A model generated the notes under the pieces. It was not told the DNA's origin and searched no databases. It saw nothing but the letters and a program-made list of their open reading frames with translations. Below are positions 3,339-52,541 of a DNA stretch of 64,000 bases, piece by piece (the stretch's first letter is position 1; each line of letters starts with the position of its first letter). The DNA comes from Marinobacterium aestuarii (GTDB lineage Bacteria; Pseudomonadota; Gammaproteobacteria; Pseudomonadales; Balneatricaceae), in NCBI RefSeq assembly GCF_001651805.1, contig NZ_CP015839.1:2480001-2544000 (forward strand), in the 5' to 3' direction. The position numbers and the translations under genes are program-made.

Positions 3339-4829
3339 TCAGATCTGCATCAGAACCGATTTGACCTCGGTATAGTGGTGAATCACCTCAGCCCCCATTT
3401 CCCGCCCAAGGCCGGACTGCTTGTAGCCGCCAAAGGGCAGGGCCGGGTCCAGCGCCGTATGGCAGTTGACCCAGACACTGCCGGACTTGATACGCGGAAT
3501 CATGCGATGCACCGCCGACAGGTCGTTGGACCAGATACTGGCGCCCAGACCGTAGGGGCTGTCGTTGGCCATGCGCACAACCTCGTCGATGTCGTCAAAC
3601 GGCATGGCGACCAGTACGGGTCCGAAGATTTCTTCCTGCACCAGGGGCGAGCGGTGATCCACATCGGCGATCACGGTGGGGCTCACGAAGAAACCGGGGC
3701 CGCTCATGGTACCGCCGGCGGCGATGGAGGCGCCGCTTTCACGCCCCTGCTCGATATAGCCGAATACCCGCTGTTGCTGCTTGGCCGAGACCAGGGGGCC
3801 CATCTGTACGCTCGGGTCCATGCCGTTGCCCAGGCGAATACTGCCTGCGATGCCGCTGATATCGGCGACCACATTGTCGAAGTGTTTGCGGTGCACGTAC
3901 AGGCGCGAACCGGCGCAGCAGACCTGTCCCTGGTTAAAGAAGATCGCATTGGCCGCACCCTGGGCGGCGCTGGCCAGGTCCGCATCCGGCAGCACTATGG
4001 TGGGGGACTTGCCGCCCAGCTCCAGGGTCACGCGGGTCATGCTATCCATGGCCGCCTTGCCAATCATCTTGCCCACCGGCGTGGACCCGGTGAACGTGAG
4101 CTTGTCGATATCCGGATGAGCCGACAGTGCCGCGCCGGCGTCCTGTCCCAGGCCCGTTACCACGTTCAGTACGCCCGGCGGATAGCCCGCTTCCAGTGCC
4201 AGCTCAGCCAGCTTCAGGGCGGTGAGAGGGGTGTCTTCAGCCGGTTTGAGGACGATGGTGCAGCCGGTCGCCAGCGCCGGTGCAATCTTCCAGATGGCCA
4301 GCAGCAACGGGAAGTTCCAGGCCACGATGGCGCCGACAACGCCCAGCGGCTCGCGGCGCGTGTAGCCGTGGAACTGACCGTCCGGCATAAAGGGCATGGA
4401 TACATCAACGCTGTTGCCCTCGATCTTGGTGGCCCAGCCGGCCATGTAGCGCATGAAGTTGATGCCAAGCTGGATATCCACCGCCCGGGCGATACCCAGG
4501 CTCTTGCCATTATCCATGCACTCAAGTTCGGCCAGCATGTCGGCGTTCTTTTCCACCAGGTCCGCAAAGCGCCACAACAGCAGTTCGCGATCCGCCGGTT
4601 TCATGCGGCTCCAGGCCGAATTTTCGAAGGTGCGCCTTGCACAGGCCACCGCCGCATTGACATCGTCCTTGCTGGCCGCGGCCACGCTGGTCAGCAGCTT
4701 GCCGGTGGCGGGGTTCAGCACGTCGATGCGCTGCTGGTTGCTGGCTTCGGGACGCTGGTCGCCAATCAGAAGCTGGTGGGGCTGATCGATAAAGGCCGCG
4801 GTATCGGCACGCAGGGTATAGGAGCTCAT
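3339..4829 (-). CDS. Aldehyde dehydrogenase, phenylacetaldehyde-dehydrogenase type (FeaB/PadA-like)
   Basis: NAD(P)-dependent oxidation of an aldehyde to an acid in the cytoplasm. 496 residues, full length for the family. Visible landmarks are W-N-F-P with the oxyanion Asn172, the general base Glu270 in E-L-G-G-K-S-P, and the catalytic Cys304 in G-Q-V-C-C-A-G-S-R. The sequence resembles E. coli FeaB throughout. The start at 4829 is chosen over 4862 because a sigma-54 promoter at 4872-4887 would start transcription near 4861, leaving no leader for the longer form, and because AAGG precedes 4829. It is divergent from the qhp amine dehydrogenase operon, so it likely consumes the aldehyde that enzyme releases. 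The exact substrate (phenylacetaldehyde or an aliphatic aldehyde) is not determined. Confidence 0.9.
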   Translation of the reverse strand: MSSYTLRADTAAFIDQPHQLLIGDQRPEASNQQRIDVLNPATGKLLTSVAAASKDDVNAAVACARRTFENSAWSRMKPADRELLLWRFADLVEKNADMLAELECMDNGKSLGIARAVDIQLGINFMRYMAGWATKIEGNSVDVSMPFMPDGQFHGYTRREPLGVVGAIVAWNFPLLLAIWKIAPALATGCTIVLKPAEDTPLTALKLAELALEAGYPPGVLNVVTGLGQDAGAALSAHPDIDKLTFTGSTPVGKMIGKAAMDSMTRVTLELGGKSPTIVLPDADLASAAQGAANAIFFNQGQVCCAGSRLYVHRKHFDNVVADISGIAGSIRLGNGMDPSVQMGPLVSAKQQQRVFGYIEQGRESGASIAAGGTMSGPGFFVSPTVIADVDHRSPLVQEEIFGPVLVAMPFDDIDEVVRMANDSPYGLGASIWSNDLSAVHRMIPRIKSGSVWVNCHTALDPALPFGGYKQSGLGREMGAEVIHHYTEVKSVLMQI

Positions 4830-4871
4830 TGCACTTAACCTTTGTTGTTGTGTCGGTGTCATGCGGACTAT

Positions 4872-4887
4872 CGCAACAGCCGTGCCA
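4872..4887 (-). promoter_or_regulatory. Sigma-54 promoter for the aldehyde dehydrogenase
   Basis: On the minus strand the sequence reads TGGCACG-N4-TTGCG. It has the invariant GG and GC exactly 12 bp apart, an essentially perfect match to the -24/-12 consensus. Expected transcription start is near 4861, about 30 bp before the chosen ATG. Confidence 0.85.
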
Positions 4888-4975
4888 GGCTAGCGTCTGT
4901 TTCATATCCTATTGTTTTTAAAAGATTAAAATTTCCATTGAATGGGCGGGCCGGCGGGATGCCTCCAGGCCGTTC

Positions 4976-4992
4976 TGTCGCAAATTGAGACG
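4976..4992. promoter_or_regulatory. Candidate activator site 1 (TGTCGC-N2-ATT-N-AGAC motif)
   Basis: The 17-bp sequence has TGTC and GACG half-sites spaced by 9 bp and matches the element at 5072-5088 at 14 of 17 positions. Its centre is about 120 bp upstream of the predicted aldehyde dehydrogenase start, a normal enhancer distance. Confidence 0.6.
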
Positions 4993-5071
4993 GGCGTTAA
5001 AAATTGATGCAGGGCAGGGTAAGCCTGGCCGTAGTATCAGGGTGCTGCGGGTTGTATCAGTTTGTAACAGT

Positions 5072-5088
5072 TGTCGCGGATTAAGACA
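5072..5088. promoter_or_regulatory. Candidate activator site 2 (same motif)
   Basis: TGTC-N9-GACA, the more symmetric copy of the motif. Its centre is about 112 bp upstream of the predicted qhpA transcription start. Together with site 1 it gives a mirror-like arrangement around the divergent sigma-54 promoters. Confidence 0.6.
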
Positions 5089-5165
5089 GCCAAGGCCCGT
5101 TGATGACGGCGCTGATGGGCGTCTGTAAGTATGTAAGGTATTGATAAATAGTGTTTTTGTTCTTG

Positions 5166-5181
5166 TGGCACGGAGCGTGCT
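5166..5181 (+). promoter_or_regulatory. Sigma-54 promoter for the qhp operon
   Basis: TGGCACG-N4-GTGCT, with GG (5167-5168) and GC (5179-5180) at the required 12-bp spacing. Only the first T of the -12 element departs from consensus. Expected start is near 5192, giving a leader of about 73 nt. Confidence 0.85.
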
Positions 5182-5264
5182 CTTGTTATTCGCAAAGGAA
5201 CGGGCCACGGTTGTGAGTCTGTTCCAGTGCTTCTGCATGACCCTGCAACCAAGGAGGTCTGACC

Positions 5265-6857
5265 TTGAATAAAAACTATGCACGTCTGCACCTGAGGTGG
5301 CGTCTGCTGCCCATGGCCGTTGCCCTGGCCTGCACGCCGGCGCTGGCCGAAACCGATGCCCAGAAAATCATGGGCCAAACCTGTGCCGCCTGTCATACCG
5401 CCGAGCCCGATGGCAACTGGAGCCGTATCAGCCATCAGCGCAAGACGCCGGAAGGCTGGCTGATGTCCATTGCCCGCATGCAGGTCATGCACGGGTTGCA
5501 AATCAGCGATGAAGATCGGCGCACCCTGGTCAAATACCTGGCAGACCGCCAGGGTCTTGCGCCCAGTGAAACCGCCGGCGCTCGCTACGCACTGGAACGC
5601 CGTTTGAACACCATGGAGAGCTTCGAGTCCGAGGCCTTCACCCAGACCTGTGCCCGCTGTCATTCCGGTGCCCGTGTGGCCCTGCAGCGCAGGCCGGCGG
5701 CGGAGTGGGAACACCTGGTCCACTTTCACCTGGGGCAATGGCCCACCACCGAATACCAGGCCCTGGGACGCGATCGCGACTGGTTGAACCTGGCACTGGA
5801 CACAATGGTGCCCGAACTGGCCGATACCTATGGGCTGGAATCCGATGCCTGGACCCAGTGGCAGGCCAGTGCCAAGGCGGACCCTGCCGGACAGTGGCGC
5901 CTGATCGGTCAGATTCCCGGACGGGGCGAAATGAACGCAACCCTGAGCGCACGTCGCAGCGGTGATGACCTGTACAGCCTGGAGCTGGTCGGCCAGTACG
6001 CCGATGGCACGGCGCTTAGCGGCAGCGGCCAGGCCATCGTCTATACCGGTTATGAGTGGCGTGGCGAGATTGAGGTCGACGGCGTTGCCATGCGCCAAGT
6101 GTTTGCTTTGGATGGCGATCGTATCAGCGGGCGCATGTTTGAAACCGAGCACGATGAAGTGGGTTTTGATATCCGCGGTGCACGCCTGCAGGCCGACAGC
6201 ACGCAATTGCTGGCGGTGCAGCCCGGCTATCTCAAGGCGGGCAGCAGTGCGGATATCACCCTGGTGGGCGCGGGCCTTGCCGGCGACATCGTGCTGGGCG
6301 AGGGCGTTACCATTGATGAGGTTTTGCAGCGCACTGAAGACACCATTCGCCTGCGGGTCAGCGCTGCCCAGGATGCGACTGGGTTGCGTGAGGTGCGCGT
6401 CGGCGACAGCGAACCTGTTTCCTTTAGTCTGTACGACAGCATCGCCCGTATCCGGGTGCTGCCTGAATACAGCGTGTCTCGCATTGGCGGCAATGGCAGC
6501 TCCACGCCTCGGGTATACGGCCTGTTTGATGCCGAAGCCTGGGCGGCGGGCACCGATGGTATCGCCAACACGGATGATGACTACCGTATCGGCATAGTCC
6601 CCGCCAGCTGGTCGGTGGAGCCCTTCGATGAGCGCGCCGCAGAAGACGAAGATACCCGCTTTGCCGGCGTGATCGATGCGGTGACCGGACGCTTTACGCC
6701 AGGTGCCGCCGGGCCTAACCCTGAAAGGCGCATGAGCACCAACAATGCCGGCAACCTCAAGGTCGTGGCCAGCGTTGAAGAAGATGGCCAGAGCCTGAGT
6801 GGCAGCGCACAGATGATCGTGACGGTGCAGCGCTGGAACAATCCGCCGATTCCGTGA
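5265..6857 (+). CDS. qhpA: Quinohemoprotein amine dehydrogenase, alpha subunit (dihaem)
   Basis: Periplasmic dihaem c subunit that takes electrons from the CTQ cofactor of the gamma subunit during oxidative deamination of primary amines. 530 residues. The start codon is TTG, fixed by AAGGAGGT six bases upstream; the ATG at 5278 is out of frame. A signal peptide ends at A-L-A around residue 28. Haem motifs are C40-A-A-C-H44 and C129-A-R-C-H133. The C-terminal two thirds are beta-rich Ig-like domains, as in the known enzyme. It is first gene of the qhpADCB operon under a sigma-54 promoter. Confidence 0.93.
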   Translation: MNKNYARLHLRWRLLPMAVALACTPALAETDAQKIMGQTCAACHTAEPDGNWSRISHQRKTPEGWLMSIARMQVMHGLQISDEDRRTLVKYLADRQGLAPSETAGARYALERRLNTMESFESEAFTQTCARCHSGARVALQRRPAAEWEHLVHFHLGQWPTTEYQALGRDRDWLNLALDTMVPELADTYGLESDAWTQWQASAKADPAGQWRLIGQIPGRGEMNATLSARRSGDDLYSLELVGQYADGTALSGSGQAIVYTGYEWRGEIEVDGVAMRQVFALDGDRISGRMFETEHDEVGFDIRGARLQADSTQLLAVQPGYLKAGSSADITLVGAGLAGDIVLGEGVTIDEVLQRTEDTIRLRVSAAQDATGLREVRVGDSEPVSFSLYDSIARIRVLPEYSVSRIGGNGSSTPRVYGLFDAEAWAAGTDGIANTDDDYRIGIVPASWSVEPFDERAAEDEDTRFAGVIDAVTGRFTPGAAGPNPERRMSTNNAGNLKVVASVEEDGQSLSGSAQMIVTVQRWNNPPIP

Positions 6858-6917: not shown

Positions 6918-8348
6918 ATGGGCGCACTATTTAATCTTGTTGAACGCAATCTGCATGAAGTACAGGTCGGCGATGACCGCATGCTGTTTCATATTCCTAC
7001 CAGCTCGCTGTTTGCCCTGGACGGCGCCTGCGGCGATATTATTGACCTGCTGCGTCAGCAGGCACAGTTGCCCTCCGAGCTGATTGGTCAGCTTGGCGGG
7101 CGTTACCCGCAGCAGGACATCAGCGACACCCTGCGCGAGCTCAAGGCGCTGGAGCTGATCAATGACGGCTCGCCGCTGACCGATGAAATCGGCACCCGGC
7201 GGGTGGATCAGTTTCCGCTCACAACGGTGGTGCTGAACGTCAATACCGGCTGCAACCTCAGCTGTACCTACTGCTACAAGGAAGATCTGGACACGCCGTC
7301 CGCCGGCAAGCGCATGAGCTTCGAGACGGCGAAGGACTCGGTCGAGATGCTGCTGCGAGAGTCGCCGGATGAAAAGCGCTACACAGTGGTGTTCTTCGGT
7401 GGTGAGCCGCTGAGCAACCGGCCGCTGATCCAGCAGGTGGTGGATTACTGCGAAACCCGCTTCCCGGCACTGGGCAAGGCGGTGGACTTTGTCATGACCA
7501 CCAACGCGACTCTGCTGAACGAAGAGATTATCGACTGGCTCAACGCCCACCGCTTCGGCCTGTCGGTGAGCATCGATGGCCCCAAGGCGATTCACGACAA
7601 GAACCGCATCACCGTGGGTGGCAATGGCACCTACGAGGTGGTGCGGCGCAAGGTGGAATGGCTGCTTAAACGCTACGACTCCCGCCCCGTGGGTGCCCGC
7701 GTTACCCTGACCCGGGGCATCACCGATGTGGAAAACATTTGGGACCACCTGTTCAATGAGCTGGGCTTCGCCGAAGTCGGCTTTGCCCCGGTGACCTCGG
7801 GGGATATCAGCGACTTCAACCTCAGTGGCGAGGAGCTGATCGAGGTGTTTGCCAGCATGAAACGCCTGGGGCAGGTCTACCTGGAGGCTGCGCTGGAGCA
7901 TCGCAATATCGGCTTTTCCAACCTGCATCAGCTGATTACCGATATCCATGAAGGCCACAAGAAAGCGCTGCCCTGCGGTGCCGGCCTGAAGATGCTGGCG
8001 GTGGATCACGAAGGTGAACTGAACCTGTGTCACCGCTTTACCGGCTCCAGCCTGCCCACCTTTGGCAATGTGCGCGACGGTGTGCAGCATGCCCAGCTCG
8101 GCGATTTCCTGTCCCAGCGGCTGGATCGTACCGATACCGGCTGCCAGGACTGCCGCATCCGCAACCTCTGTTCAGGCGGCTGTTACCACGAAAGCTATGC
8201 CCGCTATGGCGACCCGACCCATCCAACCTATCACTACTGCGATCTGATGCGCGACTGGGTGGACTTCGGCATTCAGGTTTACAGCCGGATCATGGCGGCC
8301 AATCCCGCCTTTATCGATCAATACATTACGCCGCGCCAGGCCCACTGA
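6918..8348 (+). CDS. qhpD: Radical SAM maturase of quinohemoprotein amine dehydrogenase
   Basis: QhpD forms the intra-peptidyl thioether (Cys to Asp/Glu) cross-links in the gamma subunit precursor, in the cytoplasm. 476 residues. The radical SAM cluster is C112-x3-C116-x2-C119 (G-C-N-L-S-C-T-Y-C-Y). The C-terminal SPASM/twitch region has many cysteines (L-P-C-G-A-G, C-Q-D-C-R-I-R-N-L-C-S-G-G-C) for auxiliary Fe-S clusters. The N-terminal about 95 residues resemble a peptide-recognition wing. It is placed between qhpA and its substrate gene qhpC, the order known for this system. Confidence 0.93.
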   Translation: MGALFNLVERNLHEVQVGDDRMLFHIPTSSLFALDGACGDIIDLLRQQAQLPSELIGQLGGRYPQQDISDTLRELKALELINDGSPLTDEIGTRRVDQFPLTTVVLNVNTGCNLSCTYCYKEDLDTPSAGKRMSFETAKDSVEMLLRESPDEKRYTVVFFGGEPLSNRPLIQQVVDYCETRFPALGKAVDFVMTTNATLLNEEIIDWLNAHRFGLSVSIDGPKAIHDKNRITVGGNGTYEVVRRKVEWLLKRYDSRPVGARVTLTRGITDVENIWDHLFNELGFAEVGFAPVTSGDISDFNLSGEELIEVFASMKRLGQVYLEAALEHRNIGFSNLHQLITDIHEGHKKALPCGAGLKMLAVDHEGELNLCHRFTGSSLPTFGNVRDGVQHAQLGDFLSQRLDRTDTGCQDCRIRNLCSGGCYHESYARYGDPTHPTYHYCDLMRDWVDFGIQVYSRIMAANPAFIDQYITPRQAH

Positions 8349-8396: not shown

Positions 8397-8720
8397 ATGA
8401 AACATTTGCGAGCAATCAACAACAAGGCACAACTGCTGACCAATGCGGTAGACGATGACGCCGTCGAGGATGTTATGGCCATGAGCTCCCTGGCGGGTTG
8501 TACCGCCACCACGGACCCTGGCTGGGAAATCGATGCCTTTGGTTCTGTGACCTCCCTGTGCCAGCCCATGGAGTCCGACCTCTATGGCTGCGCCGATCCC
8601 TGCTGGTGGCCGGCCCAGGTACCGGACATGATGAATACCTACCCCGACTGGAACAAGGACGCCATGAGCTCGAAAGATGACTGGCGCAACCTGGGAACCG
8701 TGTTCCCCAAAGACAAATAA
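8397..8720 (+). CDS. qhpC: Quinohemoprotein amine dehydrogenase, gamma subunit (CTQ-bearing)
   Basis: Small catalytic subunit, 107 residues, with a cleavable leader of about 28 residues. By alignment from memory with the Pseudomonas putida subunit, the three thioethers are Cys35-Glu44, Cys55-Asp61 and Cys69-Asp77. The cysteine tryptophylquinone would form between Cys65 and Trp71 (Y-G-C-A-D-P-C-W-W). All these residues are present. The C-terminal [13 protein letters not shown] is almost invariant in the family. Nothing suggests a defective subunit. Confidence 0.95.
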
Positions 8721-8743: not shown

Positions 8744-9877
8744 ATGAAAAAACAGTTAATGCACCGCGCCGCCGCGTTTGGCGTAGCGGCTCTGCTTGCG
8801 GGCCTGACGGCTTACAGCCCAAGCGGCCTGGCCGCAGGACCGGCGCTGGAAGAAGGCCATGAATACATGGTCGTCGCCAATTACCCCAATAACCTGCACG
8901 TGCTGGATCTGGCCACGGACTCGATCTACAAGAGCTGCGAGATGCCGGATTCTTTTGGCCCCGGCGCCATTCAGATGGCACCGGATCGCCAGACCGCCTA
9001 CGTGCTCAATAATCACTACGAGGATATCTACGGCGTTAACCTCGACACCTGCGAAGTGGTATTTCATGCCGCCATGTCACAGGCGCCCAATGAGCGCACA
9101 AAGTCGATTTTTGCCTTTGCCATCAGCCCTGCGGGCGACGAAATCTATACGGTACAGAACCCGACGCTGCTGAACCGAGACCACTATCGTGTGCTGCAGC
9201 CCCGCCTGGCGGTATACAAGGCTGATGCAGGCCTCAATGCCAAGCCGGTGCGTACCTTCGAGGCGCCGCGCCAGGTGACGGTCATGCAGGCGGGCAGCGA
9301 TGGCAGTCTGTATATGGCCGGTGCCGATATCTACAAGGTGGATGTAGAGACCGGTGAGCGTACCGTCGCCATTGCCAGTCGCAACTGGACGCGGCCCAAC
9401 TACGCGCCACCGGATGTGCTGAGTGTCTGGCCTATCCAGACCGCCACGCGGGATTTCACCATTCTCTACACCACGGCCAGGTTTCAGGATGAAATCCAGA
9501 ATCCTGATACCGCCGACTGGCTCTGGGGGTACATGAACGTGAATCTGGACACCGGCGCCACCGAAACCGTGGATTTCGGTCCCATTACCGAGGTCTATTT
9601 CACCGGTACGCGCTCGCCCAAGGATCCCAACCTGATGTTTGGCGTGCTTAACCGCCTGGCCAAGTACGATATTGAAAAGCAGGAACTGATCAAGGCGGCG
9701 GAGCTGGACCATTCCTACTACTGCATCGCCTTTAACCGGGCGGGCAGCAAGATCTATCTGGGCGGCACCTACAACGACGTTGCCATCTATGATGCCGACA
9801 CTCTGGAGAAGGTCGGCAATATCCAATTGCCCGGTGGCGATATGGCCATCTCCACGGCGCAAGTGTTTGTCCACTGA
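8744..9877 (+). CDS. qhpB: Quinohemoprotein amine dehydrogenase, beta subunit
   Basis: Periplasmic seven-bladed beta-propeller subunit that caps the gamma subunit and forms the active-site cleft. 377 residues with a signal peptide of about 31 residues (hydrophobic A-A-F-G-V-A-A-L-L-A-G-L, cleavage near G-L-A-A). YVTN-like blade motifs are visible (N-Y-P-N-N-L-H-V-L-D-L, S-K-I-Y-L-G-G-T-Y-N-D-V-A-I-Y-D). Last gene of the operon, closed by a strong terminator. Confidence 0.92.
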   Translation: MKKQLMHRAAAFGVAALLAGLTAYSPSGLAAGPALEEGHEYMVVANYPNNLHVLDLATDSIYKSCEMPDSFGPGAIQMAPDRQTAYVLNNHYEDIYGVNLDTCEVVFHAAMSQAPNERTKSIFAFAISPAGDEIYTVQNPTLLNRDHYRVLQPRLAVYKADAGLNAKPVRTFEAPRQVTVMQAGSDGSLYMAGADIYKVDVETGERTVAIASRNWTRPNYAPPDVLSVWPIQTATRDFTILYTTARFQDEIQNPDTADWLWGYMNVNLDTGATETVDFGPITEVYFTGTRSPKDPNLMFGVLNRLAKYDIEKQELIKAAELDHSYYCIAFNRAGSKIYLGGTYNDVAIYDADTLEKVGNIQLPGGDMAISTAQVFVH

Positions 9878-10073: not shown

Positions 10074-11987
10074 ATGCACCCGAAACTCCATCCAACCCTG
10101 GTCGATGATCCCCAGCAGGGTATCCGTATCGCACGCAACCGCCTGCTTGAGTGTGGCGAGGTGCCGTCCGGTTTGCTGCGGGATGAAATCGAGGCCTCCT
10201 GGCGGCGCAGTGTCGGGGCGGGGCTCAGTTTGCGCGGGCCCTTTGATGCCGATACCAGGGTGGCGGGCCTGCGCGAACTGCTGGACGCTCACCAGGATCT
10301 GATCCAGCTGGCGGCACCGGAAATGGAACAGCTCAGCCGCCAGGTTGGTGATTCAGGGGTGGTGGTGCTGGCCAACGCCGATGCCACCATTCTCACCACC
10401 GAAGGCTGTCGCGAGAAGTCGCTGCGCGAGCGCTTTGGCCTGGTACCGGGTGCCTGCTGGAGCGAGCAGGCCCGCGGCACCAACGGCCTGGGTACGGCCA
10501 TCGTCGATGCCAGGCCCACGCTGGTGAATTGCAGCGAACACTTCCTCGATTCGGTTACACATTTTTCCTGCATCTCGGCGCCCATCTGCAGTGCCGATGG
10601 CCGTGTTGTCGCGGTGCTGGACATGACCCGTGAAGGGCAACTGATTCAGCCCCAGGACAGCCTGGGCATAGTGCAACTGGCGGCCCAGAGTATCGAAAAC
10701 CGGCTCTTTGTCAGCGCCAGTCCGGATGTGCTGCTGCTGTCATTTCACAGCCGGCGCCAGTATCTGGGCTCTGTCTGGCATGGTCTTTTGGCCATCAGCC
10801 TGGATGGTCGCATTAAGGCGCTGAATGAGCAGGCCTGCCAGTTGCTGGGCGCAAGCCGCACGCGCCTGGTGGGGCGGGCAGTGGAAGAGGTGCTGGGCGA
10901 GCCGCTGGAAACCCTGCTGGCGCTGCGTCTGCGCGACGGTGTTGGCAGTCTGCAAAGCCGCGCAGGCGAGTTGTTCTGCGAGATGTTGCAGTTTCCCCGC
11001 GCCTTGCCGAGATTATTGCCAGGCTTGCGCCAGCCCGCCTTTAATCGCACGCCGGCCTCCAGGCCCGCGGACCTGTCGCACCTGGCCGGTGGCGATGCCC
11101 GCCTGGCGCGGGCGCTGCGCATAGGACCACGGGCACTGATGGCTGATGTGCCCATACTGCTCAACGGTGAAACCGGCACCGGCAAGGAAGTGATCGCAAG
11201 GGCGCTGCATGCCCACAGTGCCCGTGCAGCCAAGCCCTTTGTCGCGGTCAACTGTGCCGCCATTCCCGAAGGCCTGATTGAATCCGAACTCTTTGGCTAC
11301 CGTGAAGGCGCCTTTACCGGCTCGCGCAAGGGTGGCATGGTCGGGCGCTTTCAGCAGGCCAACGGTGGCACGCTCTTTCTGGATGAGATCGGTGATATGC
11401 CGGTGGCGCTGCAGGCACGCCTGCTGCGGGTCTTGCAGGAACGCTGCGTAGCCCCCCTGGGTGGCGGTGAAGAAGTCCGTCTGGATATAGCGCTGATCTG
11501 TGCCACCCACCATGACCTCAAGCAGCGGGTGCGTGACGGCGAGTTTCGCGAGGATCTTTTCTATCGCCTTAACGGCGTTGGCGTACGTTTGCCGGCGCTG
11601 CGTGAACGCAGTGATCTGGATGCACTTACCGCCCAGCTGCTCAGTGGCCTGGGGGCCGCCGGTGTGACGCTGGATAGCGAGGTACAGGAGCTGTTTTCAG
11701 GTTACGGCTGGCCGGGCAATATCCGTCAGCTGGAGATGGTGCTTAGAACCGCGGTGGCACTGCTCGAACCCGGTGAGCGCTGCATCGGCACTGATCATCT
11801 GAGCGATGATTTTCTGGACGACCTGCTGGCGCCACGCTGTTCGGCGGCGGGCAGCTTGAAAGAAAATGAACTGGTGCAGATACGCGAGGTGCTGGCCCGC
11901 CACCAGGGTAACATTTCAGCCGCGGCCGCGACTCTTGGCATTAGCCGCGCAACCCTGTATCGCAAGCTCAAACAACTCGAAGAATAA
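10074..11987 (+). CDS. Sigma-54-dependent activator, AcoR type (likely regulator of qhp and the aldehyde dehydrogenase)
   Basis: A 637-residue enhancer-binding protein. It has an N-terminal GAF-like sensor domain (about 75-215), a degenerate PAS-like segment (about 230-300), an AAA+ domain with Walker A G-E-T-G-T-G-K-E near 365, the sigma-54 contact loop G-A-F-T-G-S near 411 and Walker [10 protein letters not shown], and a Fis-type HTH at the C-terminus ([16 protein letters not shown]). There is no receiver domain, so it probably senses a small molecule directly. The sigma-54 promoters in front of the aldehyde dehydrogenase and qhpA make it their obvious activator. The known Paracoccus regulator QhpR is instead AraC-type. 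Confidence 0.85.
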
Positions 11988-12090: not shown

Positions 12091-13824
12091 TTAGCTCGCA
12101 GGCGCCAGCTCCGGGTGGGTATTCTGAACCTGGTGCTTTTCGGACACCTTGCGCAGGCTCATGTTGGCGATAAAGGCCACCACCAGCAGGCCGGCCATGG
12201 CATACATGGTGGAGTTGTACAGGCTGGGTGTGGGGTCCAGAGTGCCGGCAGGAGCAATTTCCATCAGGCGGCCCAGAGTTACTGTGTTGGAGGCCATCAG
12301 GGTTTGCAACTGGTCGAGTCCGGCGCCAAAGGTGGCACTGAATACGGCCGGATCCACCTGGCTGGCCAGGCTGTTAATGGCATCATTCAGCGATTGCTCG
12401 CGCAGATAAGTGATGGCAAAGGGCCCCAGCACACCTGCGGTACTCCAGGCGGTGAGCAGACGGCCGTGAATGCCACCGACATGCAGGGTACCGAAGATAT
12501 CTGCCAGATACGCCGGGATAGTGGCAAAGCCGCCGCCGTACATGGTGAAGATGATCATGGTGGCGGCGCAGAAGAGTACCAGCCATACGAGGCTTGGATT
12601 GCTGCTGACCTGGCCTGCGAAGTAGGGAATCGACAGATAGAGTGCCATGCCCAGCACGAAGAAGCAGTGGAAGGTGTTCTTGCGCCCTATGTAGTCCGAT
12701 GACGAGGCCCAGAAAAAACGCCCCAGCATGTTGAACACGCTGATCAGCAACACATAGGTGGCCGCGAAACTCGTATCCACGATATTGGGCAAGGTGGTGC
12801 CGAAGATCTCGGTCATCATGGTCTTGGCCACGCCTATAACCCCAATGCCGGCGGTTACGTTCAGGCAGAGCACCAGCCAGAGCAGGTAGAACTGCGGCGT
12901 TTTCAATGCCTGGTCAATATGCACATGCTTGTCGGTAATCAGACGGGTCTTGCCGGAAGTATCGGCCTTGGGTGTCCAGCCGGCGGGTTTCCAGCCATCC
13001 GGCGGTACCCGGTAGGAGAAGGCGGCGATGGTCATGACGATGAAATAGACAATGCCCAGGGTGATAAAGACGCTGGCCACGCCGGTGTTGCCGGTATCAA
13101 CCACATAGACACCTTCAGGACCCGACACAGGCAGCTTGGCCATGTCGGCGGCGGTCGCCACCACCACTTCGAGCTTTTGGCCTGCAACCTCTGCAAAACG
13201 GCGACCCGATTCGGTGATGAGGTTAATGTCGGCCACCCTGCCGAGGTACTGCGGGGCTTCGTAGAAAATCGACAGCAGCCAGGTTTTCAGTGGTGCGCCT
13301 ATCATGGCGCCGCCACCAAAGCCCATGATGGCCATGCCGGTCGCCATGCCGCGTCTGTCCGGGAACCAGCGCAGCAGGGTACTGACGGGCGACACATAGG
13401 CCAGCCCCAGGCCGCAGCCGCCAATGACGCCGTAACCGAGGTAGAGCAGCCAGAGCTGATCCAGGCTGATACCGATACTGCCGATCAGAAAGCCGCCTCC
13501 CCAGCACAGGGCCGCGAGGAATCCGACTGCACGGGGACCGACTTTCTCCAGCCATTTTCCGCCCAGTGCTGCCGCCAGGCCGAGGAAGACGATAGCGGTG
13601 GAGAATATCCACACCACTGAACTCAGGGACCAGTCATCGGCGGCGCTGGTGACAACGCCATGCTGGCGTATCAGGGGTGGATTGAAAATGCTCCAGGCGT
13701 AAACCGAACCTATACACAGATGTATCGCGATGGATGCCGGCGGCACCAGCCAACGGTTGAAGCCGGGCTTGGCCACAATTCTTTCCTTGAGCAGAAATGC
13801 CAAGGGGCCTGACGAGTTAGACAT
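12091..13824 (-). CDS. OFA-family MFS transporter
   Basis: A 577-residue inner-membrane transporter related to the oxalate/formate antiporter family. About 12 membrane helices are visible, with the N-terminal signature I-G-S-V-Y-A-W-S-I-F and the loop 2-3 region. A soluble insert of about 80 residues sits in the first half (around 205-285). The start at 13824 has GGAG nine bases upstream; an earlier ATG at 13848 has no clear site. A sigma-54 promoter lies about 75 bp upstream, and the upstream genes encode an NtrC-type two-component system. The likely substrate is a small organic acid, but nothing in the sequence fixes it. Confidence 0.85.
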   Translation of the reverse strand: MSNSSGPLAFLLKERIVAKPGFNRWLVPPASIAIHLCIGSVYAWSIFNPPLIRQHGVVTSAADDWSLSSVVWIFSTAIVFLGLAAALGGKWLEKVGPRAVGFLAALCWGGGFLIGSIGISLDQLWLLYLGYGVIGGCGLGLAYVSPVSTLLRWFPDRRGMATGMAIMGFGGGAMIGAPLKTWLLSIFYEAPQYLGRVADINLITESGRRFAEVAGQKLEVVVATAADMAKLPVSGPEGVYVVDTGNTGVASVFITLGIVYFIVMTIAAFSYRVPPDGWKPAGWTPKADTSGKTRLITDKHVHIDQALKTPQFYLLWLVLCLNVTAGIGVIGVAKTMMTEIFGTTLPNIVDTSFAATYVLLISVFNMLGRFFWASSSDYIGRKNTFHCFFVLGMALYLSIPYFAGQVSSNPSLVWLVLFCAATMIIFTMYGGGFATIPAYLADIFGTLHVGGIHGRLLTAWSTAGVLGPFAITYLREQSLNDAINSLASQVDPAVFSATFGAGLDQLQTLMASNTVTLGRLMEIAPAGTLDPTPSLYNSTMYAMAGLLVVAFIANMSLRKVSEKHQVQNTHPELAPAS

Positions 13825-13908
13825 AACAGCTTGCTCCGCTATCTTCATTTTTATTGCAGGAAACCAGTGGCAGATGCCGTGCGTGGCTATCTGCGCGCAA
13901 CAAGCAAA

Positions 13909-14032: not shown

Positions 14033-14047
14033 GGGACATTATGACCC
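14033..14047. promoter_or_regulatory. Upstream palindrome 2 (second putative enhancer)
   Basis: Core GGGACA-N3-TGACCC, matching palindrome 1 (GGGTCA-N3-TGACCC) except for one base. Centres are 32 bp apart, close to three helical turns. It overlaps the last codons of the kinase gene. Confidence 0.55.
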
Positions 14048-16099
14048 GGTCTGGCGGAGAGTCTTGGCGAGCATTTGTGGGTCGGCGGCACGCAGTGAGA
14101 TAAAAAAGGTTGTGCCGCGACCCTCGCGTGAGCGTAGGCAAATGCTGCCACCGGCGTGTTGCAGGATGCGATAGCTGATCGAGAGCCCAAGGCCGGAGCC
14201 GCCCTGGGTGCGGCTGAAAAAAGGGTCAAAAATGCGTGTTTGCAGGTCGGCGGCAATACCGCAGCCGTTGTCCCGTACCGCCACCAGCACGCCATCCGCG
14301 CCGCGGTCACGGCTGTGCAGGCTGATGCGGCCATCGCTGCGGTCTGGTGCTATGGCGTTGATGGCGTTCATGATCAGATTGATCAGCACCTGCTGAAACT
14401 GCATTGGGTCGGCGCTGATCCAGCGACTGGCGCGCAGATCCAGCTGCAGCTTAATGCCGCGGCTTGAAAGAGCATGTTGCACCAGCTGGCGGCTATCGCG
14501 GATAACGCCGTGGGGATCCATGGCCTGGTGCGGGTCGCTGTCGGTTTCGGGACGGGAGAACTGCAGCAGGTTGGTGATGATGGCACGGATGCGGTAGACC
14601 TGATCGATAATCATCTGGGCTTCGCGACGCACCGGTGTCGCGCTGTCGCCCAGCTCCTCCAGCAACAGATCCATATAGCCCAGAATGACCGCCGTGGGGT
14701 TGTTGATCTCGTGGGCAATGCCGGCGGTGAGTTCGCCTATGGCCGCCAGCTTGCCCTGGGCCACCAGCTGTTCGCGGCTGCGCTGCAGCAGGCGGATATG
14801 CTGCTGCAGTTCGTCGGTGCGCTGGGCCACCTTGAGCTCCAGCGAGGCGGCGGCCTGCTGTATCTGGTCGTGCTGGGCATCCAGCTGGTCGAGCATATCG
14901 TTGAACTGAGTGGCCAGCAGGGTGACCTGGTTGTCGGCGGCAAGCAGCGGAATGCGCTGGCGCCGGCCACTGCGGACCTGCTCAATCACGTCTGCGACAA
15001 TCTCAATGGGTTTGAAGATGGCGCGGGCGCCGAGCACAGCAATGCTGATGCACAGCAAGAGCCCCAGGGCGAATAGCCACAGCAGCAGCTCCAGCCATTG
15101 GTAAAAGCTCTGCAGGAAGGGCGCCTCGAGAAAGCCGGCATAGAGCATGCCGATACGCTGGCCGTGCACGTCGGTCACGGGTTCGTAGGCGGAAATGTAC
15201 CAGTCATCGACAACAAAGGCGCGGGCCAGCCAGCGTTCGCCGCGTTCCAGTACCTGGTTGCGCACCTGTTCCGAGGCGCGCGTACCCAAAGCGCGCTCGC
15301 GCGGGATCTGGGTAATCACGTTGGTGGTGATACGAATGTCATCCAGAAACAGGGTGACGTTGCCCTGGCTGTCGGCGGGCAGGCTGCCAGGGCCATAGAC
15401 AATGTCGCGGATACGGTCAACAAAGGCCAGGTTGCCGTTCATCAGCAGTCCGGCGGCAACAATGGCGACGGGCTGGCCCGTGGCATTACGCAGTGGATAG
15501 GCAAAATGCAGCATCATGCCACGGGCTTCCTCGGTCTTGTCCGACGCCTGGCTAAAGGGGGTGGGCACGAGCTTTAGGTAGGCGCGCCGGGCCAGCAGGG
15601 GATCTATGGCGGCGAGCTCGGCGGCGCTGAAAACTTCGACACCACTGACCGCGCCCTGCAGCCTTGCCTGTTGCAGCAGCGGGCTCTTTGGGTAACGGCA
15701 ATTTAGCGGTTGTTGCAGGTCGCAGCCCTGCAGATCCAGCAGGCGCACAAAGTCAAAACCGGTGTCGCCCTGCAGGCGTGCCAGAAGCGCAGCTGTCGCG
15801 GGGGCTCTGGTCAGTTGCGGCAGTGGCAGACGCATCTGCAGTGCCTCGGATGCCAGGGACAGGCGCAGCAAGTACTGCTCGCGGGTGGCGACGAAAGACT
15901 CGTGGGCAACGGCGAGGTCTGTATTGGCCTTCATCAGCAGGTGCCGGTAACCCACCTCGTGGCTCCAGTAATAGGCCAGGGCAAGGACGCCGGGTAACAC
16001 CAGCAGCAGTGGAAAAAGCACCAGGGCCAGCAGGCGGTAGCGCAGGTTGCCCAGCAGTCGGCGCCAGAGGCTGCGCAGAGGCGATTCAGTCGCGATCAT
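14039..16099 (-). CDS. Membrane sensor histidine kinase (DctB-like architecture)
   Basis: A 686-residue inner-membrane kinase. Membrane helices lie near residues 25-50 and 330-355. Between them is a large periplasmic sensor, probably a double Cache-type fold (L-L-L-R-L-S-L-A-S-E near the start, D-D-W-Y-I-S-A-Y-E-P-V near the end). A HAMP linker and coiled coil follow, then HisKA with phosphorylated His463 (A-G-I-A-H-E-I-N-N-P) and a HATPase domain (D-N-G-C-G-I-A, G-G-S-G-L-G-L-S-I). The ATG lies inside the last codons of the regulator gene (14-bp overlap). It presumably senses the substrate of the OFA transporter. Confidence 0.88.
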   Translation of the reverse strand: MIATESPLRSLWRRLLGNLRYRLLALVLFPLLLVLPGVLALAYYWSHEVGYRHLLMKANTDLAVAHESFVATREQYLLRLSLASEALQMRLPLPQLTRAPATAALLARLQGDTGFDFVRLLDLQGCDLQQPLNCRYPKSPLLQQARLQGAVSGVEVFSAAELAAIDPLLARRAYLKLVPTPFSQASDKTEEARGMMLHFAYPLRNATGQPVAIVAAGLLMNGNLAFVDRIRDIVYGPGSLPADSQGNVTLFLDDIRITTNVITQIPRERALGTRASEQVRNQVLERGERWLARAFVVDDWYISAYEPVTDVHGQRIGMLYAGFLEAPFLQSFYQWLELLLWLFALGLLLCISIAVLGARAIFKPIEIVADVIEQVRSGRRQRIPLLAADNQVTLLATQFNDMLDQLDAQHDQIQQAAASLELKVAQRTDELQQHIRLLQRSREQLVAQGKLAAIGELTAGIAHEINNPTAVILGYMDLLLEELGDSATPVRREAQMIIDQVYRIRAIITNLLQFSRPETDSDPHQAMDPHGVIRDSRQLVQHALSSRGIKLQLDLRASRWISADPMQFQQVLINLIMNAINAIAPDRSDGRISLHSRDRGADGVLVAVRDNGCGIAADLQTRIFDPFFSRTQGGSGLGLSISYRILQHAGGSICLRSREGRGTTFFISLRAADPQMLAKTLRQTGS

Positions 16100-17474
16100 G
16101 GGTGCCCTGGCGCTTGCGGTCCAGTGTCTTGCGGGCGATGCCCAGTTGCTCCGCCGCCCTTGTCTTGTTGCCGCCGTTGTTGTGCAGCACCCGGTCTATG
16201 TGGTCGGCCTCGACCTGATCCAGGGTCCAGTGCAGCGGGTAACCGCCTGCCGAGGAAGTCTCGCTGGTGGCTGTCAGCAGATCCCGGGGCAGGGTGCGCA
16301 GCAGCAGACAGCGTTCCAGCAGGTTTTTCAACTCCCGCACGTTACCGGGCCAGGGGTAGGCCTCCAGTGCCTGCATGTCGGCGTGGTTGAGGGGCAACTC
16401 AGGCATGCCCAGTTCAGCGGCCAGGCGGGCCGACAGTTGCTGTGCCAGCAGCTTGATATCCTGCTGGCGCGCTCGCAGCGGTGGAACCTCGATCTGCAAT
16501 ACGTTAAGACGGTAAAACAGATCCTGCCGAAAGCTGCCATCGCTGACCGCCTGGCGCAGGCTGCGGTTGGTTGCCGCGATTATGCGTACATCCACCGGGG
16601 TATCGCGTTCGGTGCCCAGCGGGCGAATGCGACCGTCTTCCAGGATACGCAGTAGCCGGGTTTGCAGCAGCAGGGGCATTTCGGCGATTTCATCCAGGAA
16701 CAGAGTGCCGCCGTCGGCATAGCTGAACAGGCCGGGCCTGGACTGATGCGCACCTGTGAAGGCGCCCTTGATATGGCCAAAGAGCTCGGACTCCATCAAC
16801 TCGGGGGCAATGGCACCGCAATTGACGGGCACAAAAGGGCCGGCACGGCCGCTTTGCTGGTGTATGGCACGGGCCACCAGGTCCTTGCCGGTACCGGTTT
16901 CACCTTCGATAAGCACGGCAGAGGGCGCCGGCGCGACCTGGCGCACCAGAGTGCGAATGGCTTCGAGTGACGGGCTGGTGCCGATGAGGGAATCCAGTGG
17001 AGCGCCATGGTCGAGGCGGCGACGCAGCACAAAGTTCTCCCGTGCCAGGCGGCGGCGTTCGAGTACCTGCTGTACGGCCTTGCGCATCTGTTCGATGCGA
17101 AACGGCTTGAGAATCAGGTCACAGGCACCGAGTCGCAGTACTTCTATGGCGGTGTTCATATCGGCGAAGCCGGTCATGAAGATAGTATCCGGCGGGTTAC
17201 CGGCATCCTGCAGTGCCTGCAGCCATTGCACACCGGAACGCCCGGGCAGGCAGATATCGACAATCTGCAGATCAAAATGCAGTTTTTGCCGCAGCAGGTC
17301 AGCCTCCTCGGTGGAGGCGGCGGTTTCAACGCAGCTGTATTCTTTCTGCAGGGCGCGCTGCAGGAAGTCGCGAATGCCGGCTTCGTCGTCCACCACCAGA
17401 ATGGAGAAGCCCTGGCGCTTATGCGCCTGTGTCTCGGGTGTCGGACGTGTCTGTTCGCTGGCACTGGGGCACAT
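16086..17474 (-). CDS. NtrC-family response regulator
   Basis: 462 residues. The receiver domain has acidic pocket D29-D30 and phospho-acceptor Asp73. The AAA+ sigma-54 domain has Walker A G-E-T-G-T-G-K-D, contact loop G-A-F-T-G-A, Walker [10 protein letters not shown] and R-finger region. A Fis-type HTH ends the protein ([16 protein letters not shown]). It overlaps the kinase gene by 14 bp. The sigma-54 promoter at 13909-13923 and the paired palindromes make the OFA transporter its likely target. Confidence 0.9.
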
Positions 17475-52324: not shown

Positions 52325-52541
52325 ACAAAACCCTGCGTGAACCTTGTTTGCGGTGACAGTTCTCCGTTGCCCGGTCTGGCCGTGCCTGGCGCTCTGTTCG
52401 TATCCGGTTTGCTTTGTTGCACTTTGTTACAATTCCTTGCGTAAGGTTACCCCTTTCCTGGTGGCGCTTTGTTAATTTAGATACATCCGGTTCAGGGCCG
52501 CAACAGCCCCCGGTCATAACAATAATTCAGGAAACAAAGTA

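Follow-up and report, generated by a model that had tools for sequence, protein, structure and literature searches.

A predicted sigma-54 activator and its operator at the divergent quinohemoprotein amine dehydrogenase and aldehyde dehydrogenase genes of Marinobacterium aestuarii and its relatives

Sigma-54 activators of the AcoR and BmoR types are known from acetoin and alcohol oxidation, and the regulator of the quinohemoprotein amine dehydrogenase (QHNDH; qhp) genes of Paracoccus is of the AraC type. For Pseudomonas putida, a 2008 study by Arias is said to describe pea genes taking phenylethylamine to phenylacetate under a regulator called PeaR, a protein that could be the activator treated below, already described. 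Searches of the open literature found no paper linking quinohemoprotein amine dehydrogenase with sigma54 or sigma-54, and the enzyme's name was absent among the matches listed for an RpoN query. The Paracoccus denitrificans regulator appears only as an 'n-butylamine inducible transcriptional regulator' in PMC7876137, the main text of which does not name AraC.

The locus and its predicted control elements

The locus studied here lies in a 64 kb stretch (64,000 nucleotides, hereafter the window) of the 5,191,608-base (5.19 Mb) genome of Marinobacterium aestuarii. QhpA, QhpB, QhpC and QhpD encoded in the window all exceed the curated cut-offs of their profile models, marking a quinohemoprotein amine dehydrogenase cluster, and an intergenic region of approximately 4830-5264 separates qhpA from a divergent aldehyde dehydrogenase (ALDH) gene. 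The features are as follows, in window coordinates.

3339-4829, minus strand: ALDH gene; of the curated models, phenylacetaldehyde dehydrogenase StyD comes closest, with 716 bits against a cut-off of 850
4873-4887, minus strand: predicted sigma-54 -24/-12 promoter of the ALDH gene, TGGCACGGCTGTTGC, 0 mismatches to TGGCACNNNNNTTGC
4976-4992, no strand assigned: TGTCGCAAATTGAGACG, predicted to bind the activator for the ALDH promoter; distance from its centre to the -12 base, 111 bp
4995-5011, no strand assigned: CGTTAAAAATTGATGCA, perhaps a weak second site beside that of the ALDH arm, scoring -0.2 and visible only through conservation in the genus alignment
5053-5069, no strand assigned: TGTATCAGTTTGTAACA, the outer of two sites predicted to bind the activator for the qhp promoter; distance from its centre to the -12 base, 119 bp
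5072-5088, no strand assigned: TGTCGCGGATTAAGACA, the inner of these two predicted sites, 19 bp from the outer one; distance from its centre to the -12 base, 100 bp
5134-5146, minus strand: predicted IHF site between the qhp-arm sites and the promoter, an exact match to the IHF consensus, TATCAATACCTTA
5166-5180, plus strand: predicted sigma-54 -24/-12 promoter of qhpADCB, TGGCACGGAGCGTGC, 1 mismatch to TGGCACNNNNNTTGC
5265-6857, plus strand: qhpA, amine dehydrogenase alpha subunit, with a TTG start and AAGGAGG at 5251-5257
6918-8348, plus strand: qhpD, radical SAM maturase
8397-8720, plus strand: qhpC, gamma subunit
8744-9877, plus strand: qhpB, beta subunit
10074-11987, plus strand: sigma-54 enhancer-binding protein, with GAF (75-210), AAA+ (341-503, containing GAFTGS) and Fis-type HTH (596-635) domains

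Both -24/-12 elements, with their fixed GG-to-GC spacing, lie where the initial annotation had placed them. A lone match of this kind is weak evidence, since the consensus with up to two mismatches was found 112 times in the window against 106 expected. Among 34 ALDH/qhpA regions, 31 from the family (the window included) and three from Pseudomonas, the exact divergent pair TGGYAY-N6-TGC is present in 29, as against one of 3400 dinucleotide shuffles, and in three of the five remaining regions (L155, L157 and L163) the qhp-side -12 takes the form TTCGC. Where no divergent ALDH gene is present, a forward sigma-54 site was found in a single upstream region (L085, Halomonas) out of 18, made up of 15 loci of type B and two of type A (L148 and L169; both types are defined below) together with L085 itself. 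If +1 is counted 12 bases past the -12 base, a convention assumed here, transcription would start near 4861 (ALDH, minus strand) and 5192 (qhp, plus strand). The listed ALDH start, ATG 4862, coincides with the former; translation probably begins later, and ATG 4829 (MSSYTLRADT...) is a better candidate. Measured from the site centres, the predicted transcription starts are about 123 and 112 bp away, in agreement with the approximately 120 and 112 bp given earlier.

The initial annotation had also drawn attention to two copies of an asymmetric motif, TGTCGC-N2-ATT-N-AGAC. Both are exact (4976-4991 and 5072-5087), and no further exact match to it exists in either the 64 kb window or the whole genome. 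As a binding unit, however, the asymmetric form gives way to a 17-bp palindrome, TGTCTCA-N3-TGAGACA, on which de novo searches converge and which brings in extra copies: this predicted operator occurs three times in the window, at 4976, 5072 and, previously overlooked, 5053. A palindromic expectation-maximisation search of 31 thinned regions, with sigma-54 elements masked, reached the palindrome from several unrelated starting words, and a separate search of 31 Pseudomonas regions alone gave the same consensus. With a matrix built from 30 regions excluding the window's genus, the copies at 5053, 4976 and 5072 take, in that order, the top three ranks within the 64 kb window; the Pseudomonas-only matrix places 4976 first and 5053 second, leaving 5072, which is a poor palindrome, outside the best six.

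A hit above 13 is present in every one of the 34 ALDH/qhpA regions. Fifteen of the regions contain at least two, a result matched by none of 6800 mononucleotide shuffles. Spacings of 19-21 bp separate 24 of 59 neighbouring site pairs. In an alignment of four members of the window's genus, sites and promoters appear as conserved islands, and in six fetched loci (L029, L030, L031, L141, L143 and L164) matrix hits above 12 are confined to the ALDH/qhpA intergenic region; in the window itself, a hit of 14.3 is found outside this region, at 52415. IHF-like matches, allowing at most one mismatch to the consensus, occur in 37 of 58 intervals, compared with 18% of shuffles.

Across the whole genome, 15 palindrome-like places were found with at most one mismatch, two of them inside the ALDH/qhpA region. 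None of the other 13 is convincing as a further target, and no wider regulon is therefore claimed. Near L182 the -12 lies about 88 bp away with GG where GC is expected; at L189 the element, at about 95 bp and with one mismatch, lies within a gene; the exact element at L192, about 81 bp away, is 5' of a second qhp cluster yet aimed at its response regulator; and at L193 the sigma-54-like site is just 25 bp off. Site-like sequences before qhp genes of the second type (type B, defined below) were also set aside, being interpreted as GTTACA repeats next to an OmpR-type regulator, although L179, among the 15 type B regions, scores 13.5.

As to the genes around the locus, no qhpE, qhpF or qhpG was found beside the window's qhp cluster, which, judged from its gene content, would have to borrow maturation genes from elsewhere. 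A qhpG-like gene (G000:C1:2298031-2299302; L310, L322) does occur in the genome, some 186 kb away from this cluster, and the surrounding 20 kb showed no further qhp gene. On the minus strand at 126-2667, downstream of the ALDH gene and of a 126-residue orphan frame, lie ABC transporter genes that also occur near qhp in L030 and L031; their substrate-binding protein exceeds the EhuB cut-off, and the system is possibly a candidate for amine uptake. Beyond the activator, a transporter at 12091-13848, barely above the cut-off of an L-lactate MFS model, adjoins a minus-strand pair (14039-17474) consisting of a frame that reads by eye as a sensor kinase and an NtrC-type response regulator.

The activator and its distribution with qhp

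The domain list for the activator contains GAF, AAA+ and HTH_8 (Fis-type) domains and no receiver domain. Walker A (GETGTGKE) and the GAFTG loop are both present, as expected of an enhancer-binding protein. The loop reads GAFTGS in all 34 relatives scoring above 500 bits, while the exact GETGTGKE is not found in all of them. None of the NCBIfam models listed reached its cut-off for this protein, the best being PrdR with 287.6 bits against 795. The recognition helix is SRAT(L/I)YR in the 18 qhp-activator orthologs listed; among ten other relatives listed, five have SRNT and two (L097 and L102) SRAT. In the tree the qhp activators form a branch separate from four other relatives. The distant activator of Alteromonas antoniana (L097:5522), whose helix reads SRATLYR, has a palindrome, TGTTTCAAAATGAAACA, just past its own gene and a sigma-54 site 77 bp beyond that palindrome.

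QHNDH was found in 53 of 116 family genomes at E 0.001 or better, 52 of them above the cut-off. Two types were distinguished among the full-length scores by a split set after the gap had been seen: type A, as in the window, with 674 bits and more (limit 670), and type B with 585-650. They coexist in many genomes, that of the window included. Orthologs of the activator at E 1e-110 or better are present in 34 of the 116 genomes, namely in 33 of the 34 of type A (33 above 670 bits plus G107, its fragments assigned to this type through a shared contig) and in one of the 82 others (G021), figures that, given shared descent, represent an association rather than independent trials. In the type A genome with no ortholog, G043, the contig ends at that point. 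G055 is a doubtful case, having a truncated fragment of a similar activator (54%), below threshold, beside a lower-scoring qhpA, and no sites on its 3 kb contig (L338). G054 was withdrawn as a clean negative control when a diverged activator (44%) was found further along the contig; it has weak sites only.

Sequence stretches were fetched for part of the family hits. Thirty-three type A loci were examined, and in 31 a divergent ALDH gene adjoins qhpA; the exceptions are L148, which ends with its contig but keeps the palindrome (score 18.0), and L169, which is rearranged. The palindromes are present in each of the 31 family ALDH/qhpA regions fetched. The type B loci examined have neither a divergent ALDH gene nor a full activator alongside.

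Outside the family, QHNDH was found in 98 of 298 Pseudomonas genomes searched. Of the 35 regions fetched, 33 are qhp loci of Pseudomonas; the others are L304 and a locus of G447. Upstream of qhpA, 31 of the 33 show palindrome hits above 10; no sites were found in L282 and L289, which hold distant Pseudomonas qhp types, or in the distant type of G447 (L302), and these three, with L304, which has no qhp gene, are excluded from the counts that follow. An activator relative lies within the fetched 20 kb in 25 of the 31 regions, and none does in L271, L272, L283, L286, L297 and L298. The element TGGYAY-N6-TG(C/T) was found 110-121 bp from a site in 28 of the 31, with none in range in L277, L280 and L287; TGT takes the place of TGC at the qhp-side -12 in 24 of these 28. 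On the ALDH side, 22 of 31 have the site/promoter pair within the 800 bp read. As the loci share descent, these counts too are not independent trials. A sample of 369 genomes of the class yielded one further QHNDH genome above the cut-off, G447, whose lack of sites is noted above.

The motif is thus kept beside qhp in relatives that keep the activator, and the arrangement, far from being peculiar to this genome, looks like the ordinary scheme for type A qhp in the family and in Pseudomonas. We assign a probability of roughly 0.88 to a model, built on sequence comparison, in which two back-to-back sigma-54 promoters, each with its own single or paired sites about 100 bp upstream, are served by the activator encoded after qhpB. 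The observations behind it are the sequence elements, their geometry, their conservation and the co-occurrence of the activator; binding, dependence on RpoN, the inducer, the part played by IHF and the steps of assembly are its predicted components. With inducer present, activator dimers would occupy the TGTCTCA-N3-TGAGACA palindromes and come together as a hexamer, IHF would probably bend the DNA, and the hexamer would remodel RNA polymerase-sigma-54 at each promoter, assembly steps that are known for this class of protein. One strand would then give the periplasmic quinohemoprotein amine dehydrogenase, and the other the cytoplasmic ALDH that clears its product. Aldehydes are toxic, and a single regulator that ties their formation to their clearance would account for the conservation of this divergent layout.

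Other schemes for qhp may exist, one of them in the same cell. A second cluster of the M. aestuarii genome (L032:4512-18989) encodes another QhpADCB set, together with a QhpE above its cut-off and a QhpF-like ABC transporter. In contrast to the cluster of the window, its divergent neighbour encodes an OmpR-type response regulator, and no sigma-54 site faces qhpA, the one site in the upstream region being oriented away from that gene; GTTACA repeats are found upstream of qhpA. With an OmpR-type regulator beside this cluster, the same cell may control its qhp genes in more than one way. Also beside the cluster, a frame of 2133 residues reads by eye as a hybrid sensor kinase. In Halomonas ramblicola (L085:10001-19213) a different sigma-54 activator lies near qhp, where its own forward sigma-54 site is present and the palindrome is not, so that control of this kind may have arisen a second time. 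A genome with no QHNDH contains a piece of a qhpG-like frame (L314; G003:C6:213604-213924; 58% identity) with an internal stop, perhaps a relic of lost amine oxidation.

An apparent natural exchange and the nature of the inducer

The single activator-bearing genome outside type A, G021, bears on the signal to which the activator might respond. Here (L335:8906-20000) qhpADCB is replaced by genes for a Phenol_MetA_deg protein, a PQQ alcohol dehydrogenase, pqqB, pqqC and pqqE, situated between the activator and ALDH genes on the strand that carries qhpADCB in relatives. The alcohol dehydrogenase, which has a cytochrome domain, and PqqB, PqqC and PqqE are all above their NCBIfam cut-offs, and the Phenol_MetA_deg protein is above that of Pfam. 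The G021 activator is 94.8% identical to that of G009, beside which it falls, inside its genus, in the tree; the ALDH is 96.8% identical to that of G007. The flanks containing these two genes show 84-86% DNA identity, whereas the middle has no DNA match. The two sites of G021 score 10.1 and 19.2 and stand at places aligned with the sites of G009 and G017. The -24/-12-like element on the oxidase side is TGGTATAAATAGTGC, 98 bp from its site, and that on the ALDH side is CGGCACACAAATTGC, its -24 reading CGGCAC. The simplest reading would be that the regulatory frame stayed and the oxidase was exchanged.

Retention of the frame with a swapped oxidase suggests, albeit from one draft genome, that the aldehyde, as the common product, is the signal. 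That the activator responds to the aldehyde product and not to the amine is the leading variant of the model as regards the inducer, with a little under an even chance of being right. It draws on the placing of the G021 activator and ALDH genes around PQQ alcohol dehydrogenase and pqq genes, with sites and promoter-like elements at aligned places, and on gene neighbourhoods: among 50 loci of full-length activator relatives, a PQQ alcohol dehydrogenase is present in 11 and an ALDH in 20 (the latter including three Pseudomonas qhp loci), compared with 0 and 1, respectively, of 30 loci whose match was limited to the AAA part. Set against this, the exchange is seen once, with one weak site (10.1) and an altered ALDH -24 (CGGCAC), and the G021 activator may have changed its ligand through a few substitutions or may sense the alcohol. 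Direct sensing of the amine, which would induce both steps, is rather unlikely. It has a parallel in the amine-induced expression of QHNDH under the Paracoccus regulator (PMC7876137), but sits poorly with retention of the regulator in G021 where an alcohol enzyme has replaced the amine enzyme.

A broader proposal, put forward somewhat more tentatively than the aldehyde variant itself, is that an aldehyde-sensing activator, the ALDH and the divergent promoters form a fixed frame, behind whose second promoter the aldehyde-making oxidase is exchangeable. If so, one regulatory frame would serve two unrelated quinone-cofactor enzymes, QHNDH in most relatives and PQQ alcohol dehydrogenase in G021. 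The natural exchange makes the sensed signal directly testable. Operator and regulator together could serve as an amine or aldehyde sensor.

Two probably self-contained arms and comparison with known systems

In the 31 family regions, the distance from site centre to -12 on the ALDH arm is 97-102 bp in 25 and 108-112 in six. On the qhp arm it is 98-102 bp in 21, 89-90 in two and 111 in one, with the outer site alone (118-119 bp) in three; by the pattern used, a site/promoter pair is absent in four, three of which carry the TTCGC form of the -12. The window values are 111 (ALDH arm) and 100 (qhp arm). Such shifts, in steps of one helical turn, would fit a protein touching the polymerase from a fixed face of the DNA. 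When ALDH genes are taken singly, promoter and site (matrix above 9, site 70-125 bp off) are present beside 63 of 64, the exception being L169. Eight of the 63 lie 0.9-4.2 kb from qhpA and still keep both, with weak sites of 9.1 to 12.8 at the separated genes of L297, L275, L276 and L063. Since each gene retains its site and promoter at such separations, the promoters are regarded as two self-contained units rather than dependents of one shared enhancer.

The single shared element suggested by the wording of the initial annotation is accordingly not supported. An enhancer between the promoters serving both would be in keeping with the window, where all sites lie between the promoters and within about 110 bp of each other so that cross-activation is possible, but it is improbable given that each arm has its own sites at a fixed helical distance, kept across gene separations of kilobases. 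That the elements are chance matches, with the genes under ordinary sigma-70 promoters and another regulator, might be entertained because sigma-54 consensus matches are by themselves common in the window, but is extremely improbable in view of conservation, spacing and co-occurrence with the activator. The earlier proposal of a single activator for both oxidation steps therefore stands in its main part, activator, palindrome and both promoters being conserved together in the family and in Pseudomonas: on the strength of these patterns, the ALDH promoter and the qhp promoter are very probably under the control of one linked sigma-54 activator.

As far as the open literature searched shows, this is the first concrete model for the switching on of QHNDH in Pseudomonas and relatives, and it comes with an exact predicted operator. 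The locus shares its enzyme and maturation genes with the qhp operon of Paracoccus denitrificans, but the window's cluster lacks that operon's qhpE, qhpF and qhpG and has a sigma-54 enhancer-binding protein where Paracoccus has an AraC-type regulator. Like the pea genes of Pseudomonas putida, it combines a quinohemoprotein amine dehydrogenase with a phenylacetaldehyde dehydrogenase, and the Pseudomonas qhp regions have the same palindromic sites in 31 of the 33 fetched. The GAF-AAA+-HTH layout of the activator, by which alone it is likened to AcoR and BmoR, is that of those proteins, and its full-length relatives are often found near PQQ alcohol dehydrogenase or ALDH genes. The device is of a known kind; the regulon, as far as searched, is new.
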